In this document: piece by piece, positions 7,052 to 38,878 of the stretch
How the letters are laid out: each line of letters opens with the position of its first letter
How positions within the stretch are numbered: the first letter of the stretch is position 1
NCBI GenBank assembly: GCA_021785035.1
Contig: JAJYGP010000017.1
Span: 1-38,878, forward strand
Origin: Pseudomonadota bacterium
GTDB taxonomy: Bacteria; Pseudomonadota; Gammaproteobacteria; Acidiferrobacterales; Acidiferrobacteraceae
Direction of reading: 5' to 3'
Length of the DNA stretch: 38,878 bases
The notes under the pieces: generated by a model
Told to the model about the DNA's origin: nothing
The model's database searches: none
The model's input: the letters and a program-made list of their open reading frames with translations, nothing else
Program-made: the position numbers and the translations under genes

Positions 7052-7386
7052 GTACCGCTTTACGAGGTCTAGTCCTTGATGAGGCGTCTTTGGTAACCCG
7101 CGAGGAGCTGTGCGCGAGCGGCCGAGTCACGCCAGAGGAACTCGATATTCTCGTTGCCTTGGGCCTTGTACCGCGCCGCGAGGCCGACACTTACCCCGCT
7201 TCGAGCTGGAACCGCATTCATCGCGCTCTGCGGCTACGCCGGGGGCTGGAGGCCGACTGGGAGATGGTCGCCCTGATCATGGATCTCTTGCACCGGATCG
7301 AAGAACTCAAAGCCCACATTCACCATCTCGAAGCGACGCAACCGTATCGAGATTACCCCCCAAGGGGTGAAAGCGAAGGCCTTTAG
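7048..7386 (+). CDS. cbpM: Chaperone modulator CbpM
   Basis: A protein of about 112 residues in the CbpM/MerR-like modulator family, which binds the J domain of CbpA and inhibits its co-chaperone and DNA-binding activity. Recognition rests on the SLVTREELCASGRVTPEELD segment, a helix-turn-helix-like N-terminus, the C-terminal helix MVALIMDLLHRIEELKAHIHHLE, and its position directly after cbpA. The GTG start at 7048 overlaps the cbpA TGA (GTGA), with GGGGGAC upstream, so translation is probably coupled. The 3' end overlaps the convergent zinc-ribbon gene by 4 bp. Confidence 0.85.
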   Translation: MSTALRGLVLDEASLVTREELCASGRVTPEELDILVALGLVPRREADTYPASSWNRIHRALRLRRGLEADWEMVALIMDLLHRIEELKAHIHHLEATQPYRDYPPRGESEGL

Positions 7387-8153
7387 CGTTTACTGAGTCC
7401 AGGGATAGTCGACAAGGAGGCCCCCACCGTCAGCGGATATCCACAACTACACCGAGCTGCGCCCACCTCAACACTGGCCGTGCAGTGCGGACACACAGAC
7501 AAGACCATGACCTCCGTGCCAAACACGTGGCCGCAGGCGCAACGTTCAATGACATGGGGAACTGTCGCCGTACAGGCCGGGCACACCTTATCCCCTACCG
7601 CACGCTCGGGCGGATATATCTCTCGAACCCGTACCTCTGGCTCCCGAGCCCGTACCTCCGGCTCCAAAGCCCGTACCTCCGGCTCCAAAGCCCGTACCTC
7701 CGGCTCCAAAGCCCGTACCTCCGGCTCCAAAGCCCGTACCTCCGGCTCCAAAGCCCGTACCTCTGGTCGAACTTTCTCGTGGTGCACGCTGGCGATGCGC
7801 TCGAGAGGCTCAACCTCGCGCGCCCCTCCCTCTAGCCGCACCTTGTCCTGGTACGCCTTCAGATCACGTTCGAGACTTGCGATTTCGGCGTCAACCTGGG
7901 CCAGAACACGAGTCCGGCTGGGTTCGTTGGGGAACTGCGCCGCTTCGCGCCGGAGCCGCTTAGCCTCATCCTGATATTGGCGATAGCGAGCAACGAGATA
8001 CTCTCCATATAGCCGCTCCTGATCCTCTTCCTGGTCGCCACTCATCGTCTCCGCGTAACCGCAAAAGGGACAGGCACGCGAATCCCGCGCATACTGCCGC
8101 GCGCAGGACGGGCAGAGCTTACGGTACAGCGTAGCAATCGGTTCGTCGGTCAT
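7383..8153 (-). CDS. Unrecognised zinc-ribbon protein with a seven-residue repeat rod
   Basis: A 256-residue protein I do not recognise as a named family. It has an N-terminal four-cysteine zinc ribbon (Cys14, 17, 28, 31: CPSC...CPFC). A charged, probably coiled-coil region follows (about 42-115). Seven consecutive PEVRALE-type heptads occupy about 128-176. Two more ribbons end the protein: CPAC...CAC (191-207) and CPHC...CSC (221-237). The heptads contain a proline in every unit, so they suggest an extended, charge-alternating rod rather than a coiled coil. There is no signal peptide or membrane segment, so it is probably cytosolic. Zinc binding and a scaffold or nucleic-acid role are inference. 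It converges on cbpM with a 4-bp overlap and has its own promoter. ATG 8153 is preceded by TGAGG at about 10 nt. Confidence 0.75.
   Translation of the reverse strand: MTDEPIATLYRKLCPSCARQYARDSRACPFCGYAETMSGDQEEDQERLYGEYLVARYRQYQDEAKRLRREAAQFPNEPSRTRVLAQVDAEIASLERDLKAYQDKVRLEGGAREVEPLERIASVHHEKVRPEVRALEPEVRALEPEVRALEPEVRALEPEVRALEPEVRAREPEVRVREIYPPERAVGDKVCPACTATVPHVIERCACGHVFGTEVMVLSVCPHCTASVEVGAARCSCGYPLTVGASLSTIPGLSKR
7628..7769. repeat. 21-bp tandem repeat inside the zinc-ribbon gene
   Basis: The unit CCCGTACCTCCGGCTCCAAAG occurs five times without a mismatch from 7649 to 7753. A diverged unit precedes it (7628-7648) and a partial unit follows (from 7754). On the minus strand each unit encodes one heptad, so unit gain or loss keeps the frame. 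Open frames on both strands here are a by-product of the repeat. Confidence 0.97.
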
Positions 8154-37192: not shown

Positions 37193-37900
37193 TCACCGGC
37201 CGCGCCTTGGTTTAGAACCTACCTTTTTGGTCTGCCCGGCCTCCGGCGCGTCAATGCTGCCCATCTGGCACAAATCCTTCAGCACGCAGTGGAGGCAGAG
37301 AGGCCGAGGGCGACAGGTAGTTTTCGCATGCTCAACAATCAGCGCATGGTATTCATTGTAGAGCGTCGAGTCATTCGGTAAGGCCTGTTCGAACAGGGCG
37401 CGCAGGTCCTCGTACGACCGCTCTCCTTTGGCTAGGCCAAGCCGATCAAATATACGCCGCGTATAGCTATCGATAACAAAAACCGGTCTACCAAACGCAT
37501 AGAGCAGAATATCGTCCGCCGTTTCGGGCCCAATGCCATGGACCGCCAAGAGATCCTTACGCAGCGAAAGGGTGTCACGCTCGCCCACGCGCTCCTCTCC
37601 CCCTTGCGCTAACAACCACCGACAAAACGCCTGGAGTCGCTTGGCCTTGACGTTAAAATAGCCAACGGGTCGAAGCGCCTCCCCCAATCGGTCCAAAGAC
37701 AACTCGGCTATGGCCTGGGGCTCAAGACGAGTAAGCTTCCGCAAGCCAACCAAGGCGCGCTCGACGTTGGTCCAGGAGGTGTTCTGGGTCAGGATCGCGC
37801 CGATCATCACCTCGAATGCCGTCTCGGCGGGCCACCAGAAGCGAGGCCCATAGTGGCGATAAAGGCGGTCATAAATAGGTAGAAAGGCGTTACCACTCAC
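37193..37900 (-). CDS. Endonuclease III-like DNA glycosylase without the AP-lyase lysine
   Basis: A 235-residue HhH-GPD base-excision glycosylase. The N-terminal AFEVMIGAILTQNTSWTNVE matches the branch of endonuclease III-related glycosylases (MagIII/Mig-like). The helix-hairpin-helix is LLAVHGIGPETADDIL (118-132). The catalytic aspartate is Asp144 in VIDSYTRRIF. The lysine used by true endonuclease III for AP-lyase activity is Glu126 here, so a monofunctional glycosylase is inferred. Four cysteines (196, 202, 205, 211) form a C-x5-C-x2-C-x5-C set, one residue shorter than the usual first spacing, probably binding [4Fe-4S]. The GTG start overlaps the rluB TGA (GTGA). Confidence 0.87.
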   Translation of the reverse strand: MSGNAFLPIYDRLYRHYGPRFWWPAETAFEVMIGAILTQNTSWTNVERALVGLRKLTRLEPQAIAELSLDRLGEALRPVGYFNVKAKRLQAFCRWLLAQGGEERVGERDTLSLRKDLLAVHGIGPETADDILLYAFGRPVFVIDSYTRRIFDRLGLAKGERSYEDLRALFEQALPNDSTLYNEYHALIVEHAKTTCRPRPLCLHCVLKDLCQMGSIDAPEAGQTKKVGSKPRRGR

Positions 37901-38646
37901 CGGGACTTACGCGGAGTTGGCAAGCCCGCGGCGGCGTAGAGCGCCGCGATATCGGCAGACAACAGCGGGCGGCTGTGACCAGGACGGAGATTACGCGGAA
38001 GGTCAATGGGACCGTAACTGATCCGAATGAGGCGGCTCACGACCAAGCCGAACGCCTCGAACATACGCCGCACCTCCCGTTTACGGCCCTCCATGATGCC
38101 CACATGATACCAGTGATTGGCGCCATCGCCTCCGGCATCCTGGACCTCGGTGAAATGCGCCGGACCGTCCTCCAATGTGACTCCGGTCTTGAGTTTTGCT
38201 ATAACACCGGCATCCGCTCGCCCGAGCACGCGCACGGCGTAACTCCGTACGATTTCTTGAGTGGGATGCATCAAACGCGCTGCCAATTCGCCGTCGGTGG
38301 TAAAGAGCATGAGGCCCGAAGAATTCATATCGAGCCTGCCGACCGCCACCCATCGTCCTTGTCGGATCGGAGGCAGATGATCGAACACGAGCGGCCGACC
38401 TTGGGGATCGCTGCGCGTGCACATCTCGCCAGCCATCTTATGATACATAAGGACCCGGGCCTGGGCCTTGGGCTTATGCCCCAGCCTCCATCCATCAACG
38501 ACAATCTCGGCCCCCGGCTCTACACGCTCGCCGAGCTCCGCGATGCGCCCCGCGACCCTGACCCGTCCGGCCGCGATAACACGCTCCATCTCCCGCCGCG
38601 AGCCAAGCCCTCTTTGCGCTAAGACCTTTTGTAGCTTCTCACTCAT
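37897..38646 (-). CDS. rluB: 23S rRNA pseudouridine 2605 synthase RluB
   Basis: A 249-residue RsuA-family enzyme. The S4 domain MSEKLQKVLAQRGLGSRREM is nearly identical to that of E. coli RluB. RSDPQGRPLVFDHLP, the catalytic VGRLDMNSSGLMLFTTDGEL, LMHPTQEIVRSYAVRV and MEGRKREVRRMFEAFG follow. It modifies U2605 in helix 93 of 23S rRNA in E. coli. Its ATG overlaps the stop of the upstream gene (ATGA at 38646) and its stop overlaps the glycosylase GTG, so three genes are translationally coupled. Confidence 0.94.
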   Translation of the reverse strand: MSEKLQKVLAQRGLGSRREMERVIAAGRVRVAGRIAELGERVEPGAEIVVDGWRLGHKPKAQARVLMYHKMAGEMCTRSDPQGRPLVFDHLPPIRQGRWVAVGRLDMNSSGLMLFTTDGELAARLMHPTQEIVRSYAVRVLGRADAGVIAKLKTGVTLEDGPAHFTEVQDAGGDGANHWYHVGIMEGRKREVRRMFEAFGLVVSRLIRISYGPIDLPRNLRPGHSRPLLSADIAALYAAAGLPTPRKSR

Positions 38647-38878
38647 AGCGGATCAATCGGTGTCCCCTGAGGATCTACAGACGCCCCTCCATCGCTATCT
38701 GCCTCGCTATCTGCCTCGCTATCTGCCTCGCTATCTGCCTCGCTATCTGCCTCGCTATCTGCCTCGCTATCTGCCTCGCTATCTGCCTCGCTATCTGCCT
38801 CGCTATCTGCCTCGCTATCTGCCTCGCTATCTGCCTCGCTATCTGCCTCGCTATCTGCCTCGCTATCTGCCTCGCTAT
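38643..38878 (-). CDS. C-terminal end of a gene with an SEAD-repeat tail, possibly scpB
   Basis: On the minus strand one frame is open from the window edge to a TGA at 38645-38643 that overlaps the rluB ATG. It encodes repeated S-E-A-D and ends in SDGGASVDPQGTPIDPL. Only this C-terminal tail is in the window, so the fold cannot be seen. scpB commonly lies directly upstream of rluB, and ScpB proteins often have acidic, variable C-termini; the scpB call rests on that alone. Of the other two minus frames, one has a stop in every repeat. The coupling to rluB is the main reason to believe this frame. Confidence 0.5.
   Translation of the reverse strand, partial: SEADSEADSEADSEADSEADSEADSEADSEADSEADSEADSEADSEADSEADSEADSEADSDGGASVDPQGTPIDPL
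38692..38878. repeat. Perfect 12-bp tandem repeat running off the window
   Basis: The unit GCCTCGCTATCT is repeated without a single mismatch: a 9-bp partial copy at 38692-38700, fourteen full copies from 38701 to 38868, then 10 bp to the edge. The true copy number is unknown because the window ends inside the array. Twelve bases equal four codons, so changes in copy number keep the reading frame. Confidence 0.98.

Follow-up and report, generated by a model that had tools for sequence, protein, structure and literature searches.

Which gene carries a perfect tandem array of Ser-Glu-Ala-Asp codons that abuts rluB and runs off the end of its contig, and what could keep such an array in place? 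The question arises from a stretch of 38,878 bp (hereafter, the window), which is the entire contig C20 of assembly G000 (107 contigs, 94.5% complete; C20 and C80 are our own contig labels) and terminates inside the array. The repeat, its missing upstream partner and the corresponding locus in related genomes are described below, followed by the readings that could explain them.

A perfect 12-bp array at the contig end

The final 187 bases of the window consist of a tandem array of period 12, for which Tandem Repeats Finder (TRF) reports 15.6 copies with 100% matches (Table 1). At a lag of 12, 175 consecutive bases match, which would have a chance probability of about 1e-98 given the length and composition of the window. 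Read on the minus strand, the open frame encodes (SEAD)15 followed by SDGGASVDPQGTPIDPL and a stop codon. Within the source assembly, the 24-mer made of two units is confined to the ends of C20 (14 places) and of a second contig, C80 (5 places), and the same two-unit pattern does not occur in viral contigs. The array of SEAD units is confirmed as real. An earlier note on this DNA had proposed both a perfect 12-bp array in a pure Ser-Glu-Ala-Asp frame and an assembly break at the window end; the first is borne out by the TRF matches and the minus-strand translation, and the second by the presence of the array at the ends of two contigs of the same assembly. The 15.6 copies represent the C20 part alone, the true copy number not being readable from the source assembly.

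Table 1. Features at the right-hand end of the window (positions are those of the window).
Feature	Position	Strand	Evidence
rluB, 23S rRNA pseudouridine synthase	37897..38646	-	NCBIfam NF007976 RluB, 295.6 bits (cut-off 290)
ATGA overlap of scpB stop and rluB start	38643..38646	-	sequence; genus junctions
scpB 3' part: array tail, 17-residue end, stop	38643..38876	-	open frame; core on C80 matching PF04079; unbroken in G001
12-bp array, coding unit GAGGCAGATAGC (EADS), running off the contig end	38692..38878	-	TRF; same array at the end of C80

Several other readings of this end were discarded. The plus-strand frame at 38468-38878, with an RYLP repeat, was rejected as a gene, given that any 12-bp period free of stops stays open throughout, and a further minus-strand frame with an IARQ repeat is likewise open merely because its 12-bp period contains no stop codon. 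Identity with Ser-Asp adhesins was also rejected: the tail shares a Ser/Asp-rich composition with the NCBIfam models ClfA, ClfB, SdrC and SdrD, but the resulting matches of 20-21 bits fall well short of the cut-offs, which are 999-2500 bits. The notion that C80 breaks off precisely one k-mer of the assembler into the array was likewise dropped, since its end lies 77 bases after the last DADS-type unit as against 86 after the variant base.

The array belongs to scpB, probably split between two contigs

The core of the gene lies outside the window. A DNA search found the sole other match of the array in the source assembly at the end of C80 (17,880 bp), where the order is scpA, scpB, a stretch reading DKRDT(DADS)4(EADS)6 and the contig end; i.e., four DADS units precede the EADS units. 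The part of scpB on C80 scores 169.5 bits against PF04079 (cut-off 27.4) and 127.4 bits against TIGR00281 (cut-off 89.2), and scpA, directly upstream, scores 112 bits against PF02616 (cut-off 24.6). Because C80 ends in the same array and carries scpA-scpB, the gene is assigned to scpB, whose product is the kite subunit of the chromosome-folding complex Smc-ScpAB. In the sister genome G001, whose RluB is 97% identical to that of the source assembly, the ScpB core, its tail and rluB lie on one unbroken contig, with (TEAD)4 between flanks that are near-identical on both sides. Since the scpB-rluB region of G001 is unbroken and so similarly flanked, C80 and C20 are most simply read, from the sequence, as two halves of one scpB that is split by its own array.

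In 12 of the 12 genus junctions listed, the stop codon of scpB and the start codon of rluB share 4 nt (ATGA or GTGA), and three genomes of the neighboring genus g2 have an overlap of 8 nt. The repeat units found at this place, of 12, 15 and 9 bp, all preserve the reading frame. Two further suggestions of the earlier note, namely that the gene might be scpB and that its stop lies over the rluB ATG, are thus in agreement with the ScpB scores and adjoining scpA on C80 and with the 4-nt overlap seen here and in the listed junctions.

Tails across the genus and its neighbors

Relatives of the source genome within the genus are presumably acidophiles of mine waters. The ScpB tail could be read at least partly in 13 of the 14 genus genomes, the exception being G007, in which no scpB core was found, and arrays of at least four units are present in 10. 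Four-residue units occur in G000 (EADS type, the first four being DADS; at least four units) and G001 (EADT, 4 units). Five-residue units make up the tails of G002 (EATES, 8 units), G003 (three EAHDT and three EAHDA), G005 (7 units, a mixture of EATES and EATEP), G006 (EASET, 8 units), G009 (EATEP, 23.6 copies by TRF), G011 (EATDT, 4 units) and G013 (EASES and ETSES), as well as that of G010, for which the right-hand tail end stands alone on a contig with 4 ETTDS units visible. The EATES tail of G004 is cut by two contig ends and is excluded from the 10, G012 has a degenerate tail of about 3.4 imperfect units, and no array was found in the readable tail of G008. Copy number thus spans 4 to about 24 across species, and the coding-strand units begin with GAG in all genus units seen. 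In g2, EQA units are repeated 4.7 times in G016 and 10.3 times in G017, and no array was found in the ScpB tails of G014 (g2) and G015 (genus g3). Given that G008, G014 and G015 do without one, the array is dispensable.

In a tree built from the scpB core and rluB, the four-residue pair G000/G001 stands apart from the five-residue species, and the array-free G008 clusters with g2 (support 0.991). On account of this topology, arrays at the 3' end of scpB may have had more than one origin.

Units are homogenized within species and differ between them

Units are near-uniform within a species and different between species. The source genome and G001 provide one example. Over the scpB core and rluB, 50 of 232 four-fold sites differ between them; within the array, all G000 copies of the unit encode Ala by GCA and all four G001 copies by GCT, and the unit closes with Ser (AGC) in G000 but with Thr (ACC) in G001, apart from the G001 copy adjoining the right flank, which has AGC. 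In G000, Asp replaces Glu in the first four units, and the remaining units are identical. Homogenization of the copies, which the earlier note had named beside recent expansion, is therefore matched by this uniformity within and divergence between species.

Another example is the group formed by G002, G004, G005 and G009, in which units of equal peptide differ silently only (four pairs, with 2, 1, 1 and 3 codons). Four other unit pairs show silent and replacement differences of 0/2, 2/2, 1/1 and 1/1, respectively, and a Ser-to-Pro change of unit takes place within the array of G005. All 13 five-residue consensus units have an acidic residue at positions 1 and 4; the EATAS unit of G012, which is not among these 13, lacks the second acid. 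The pattern of units is, as read from sequence comparison, one of concerted evolution, and it fits a turnover of DNA copies in which selection favors an acidic peptide; because the units share ancestry, we attach no rate to it.

Variation within a single sample was found in the metagenome-assembled genome (MAG) G013. Its contig C29 (L039) bears, between unique flanks, an array that is complete at 8 units (one ETSES, two EASES and five ETSES), and its contig C32 (L038) bears at least nine EASES units before a right flank shared with C29, in an assembly where scpB has a single match and rluB a single full-length one. Unless the contigs are misassembled or the bin mixes strains, the G013 sample holds two array alleles.

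Outside the family, the charge is common and the repeat is rare

ScpB tails were also read in two samples. In a collection sample of 80 loci (12 from the family and 68 from outside it), at least four copies of a unit of three or more residues were present at one of the 68 outside loci (L127). In a sample of the class, 40 loci were read from the 167 genomes with a match (the 20 longest listed open frames and 20 chosen by hand), and two carry an array: L200, with SEA repeated 17.7 times, and L192, with a hexapeptide repeated 5.3 times; L194 has a run of two-residue units. By the same definition, arrays are rare outside the family, at 3 of the 108 loci read, a count that includes four loci cut by a contig end and combines two samples that are non-random and possibly overlapping. 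Complete tails of at least 20 residues, by comparison, are net-negative in 93 of 94 cases outside the family (55/56, 18/18 and 20/20, after exclusion of the 4 cut and 10 shorter tails) and in 13 of 13 within it. Since relatives have ScpB tails that are acidic and free of repeats, this distribution suggests that what would be conserved is the charge, and not the repeat or how long it is.

The ScpB described here therefore shares with others (PF04079/TIGR00281) the core domain, the scpA-scpB order and an acidic tail like that of nearly all sampled, but differs in that its tail is a uniform tandem array, comparable to that of 3 of the 108 outside-family loci. The (SEA)17.7 tail of L200 belongs to a distant member of the class (G176) and is probably an independent origin of a like design.

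A probable in-frame minisatellite encoding an acidic tail

At a probability of roughly 0.6, we read the array as an in-frame minisatellite that forms an acidic C-terminal tail of ScpB, with a slippage-type turnover and with selection acting less on length than on charge and frame. Copies of the unit would be gained, lost and homogenized via slippage or unequal recombination, and, the unit being a multiple of three bases, whole-unit changes would leave scpB in frame up to the stop located in the rluB start. Selection would retain a negative tail while the sequence and the number of units drift, and such drift under selection for charge would give each species its own near-uniform unit. In the source species the tail is likely disordered, and it could serve as an electrostatic or entropic brush limiting unproductive DNA contacts of the ScpAB-Smc head region. 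In the AlphaFold2 model of the G001 orthologue (mean pLDDT 73.3), the blocks of the core reach 59-96 and the tail 44-50. Disorder would not be general in the family, given that the (EQA)10 tail of the g2 orthologue L060 is predicted as one long helix with block pLDDT values of 83-92. An extension of this reading, by which copy number would set the competition of the acidic tail with DNA at the Smc heads, a brush of variable length thereby letting a population span several compaction settings, is put forward as a long shot.

Under the minisatellite reading, a housekeeping chromosome-segregation gene would bear a homogenizing minisatellite across a genus, and the repeat would account for the tendency of assemblies of these bacteria to break between scpB and rluB. 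Tails that range from 4 to about 24 units and are built from various unit types, together with repeat-free relatives, form a natural series that could be used to probe the role of the ScpB tail.

A close precedent is the coding minisatellite (in-frame VNTR), a known kind of element in bacteria. Short in-frame units, near-perfect copies and a copy number varying by species are common to both; the present case differs in concerning a housekeeping gene of an SMC complex, in being genus-wide with one unit per species, and in that possible strain-level variation is represented by one MAG. Among open-access papers, none was found on repeats in the ScpB tail of the SMC complex or on the function of that tail; one literature match concerned the ScpB of group B Streptococcus, which we take to be an unrelated peptidase. 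MukF of the MukBEF complex has an acidic linker, part of which is bound by MukE according to a figure legend (PMC5812716). That linker is likewise an acidic stretch in an accessory subunit of an SMC complex, but it belongs to another subunit of another complex, is MukE-bound and, in that legend, has no link to repeats; as an analogy, it goes no further than showing that a related complex can contain acidic linkers.

Alternative readings

The array could also be a neutral minisatellite, arising and persisting without a role at a permissive ScpB C-terminus where it harms neither ScpB nor rluB. Drift affects the sequence and length of the unit as well as its copy number, G008, G014 and G015 live without an array, and another protein of the window contains a different in-frame array that is missing from the sister genome, all of which would be expected of neutral change. 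Neutrality sits poorly, however, with the acidic charge retained in nearly all tails, repeated or not, with the silent-only differences between equal-peptide units in one group, and with the recurrence of arrays at the scpB 3' end across the genus, and we regard it as unlikely. It is considerably less probable still that fast changes of copy number within populations grade the activity of Smc-ScpAB; the range of copy numbers among species and the two arrays of G013 would suit such length tuning, whereas the survival of array-free relatives speaks against it.

The perfect DNA identity of the copies and the GAG that starts all genus units could instead point to an array acting as DNA or RNA, i.e., as a hairpin or an array of binding sites, with the peptide incidental. 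Yet the fold of the array strand is poorer than that of its shuffled versions (z +3.02; all 200 shuffles did equally well or better), and unit length and DNA vary by species while the acidic character of the peptide stays constant, so that a nucleic-acid role appears highly improbable. Hardest of all to credit is an assembly artefact. The window does terminate in the array, and some genomes of the set carry artefacts, as illustrated by the duplications in the G005 samples described below; against this, in seven genomes (G001, G002, G003, G005, G006, G009 and G011) the 3' end of scpB holds a contig-internal array with other units, and the contigs of G000, G004, G010 and G013 stop at or just past the array, as a true repeat would cause. 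The in-frame minisatellite encoding an acidic tail is thus the reading we prefer.

Other repeats in these genomes

The second in-frame array of the window lies at 7628-7763 in a minus-strand ORF (7383-8153), where a 21-bp unit repeated 6.5 times encodes the heptapeptide EPEVRAL and connects two portions of a zinc-ribbon-like protein that matches UPF0547. This heptad array is missing in the sister genome G001, and none was seen in the inspected stretches of other genus relatives. Among arrays with a period of at most 30 bp and at least 4 copies, 400 kb of G005 contained two others with a score of at least 60 (24 bp repeated 7.1 times and 18 bp repeated 4.2 times); 400 kb of G009 contained one other, imperfect array (21 bp repeated 9.5 times, 67%). 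Additionally, in samples of the single-contig genome G005 (L138-L153), 118-bp stretches are duplicated exactly, head to tail, at twenty unrelated sites. These duplications look like unmerged joins of overlapping contigs, and this "complete" genome may therefore be faulty.
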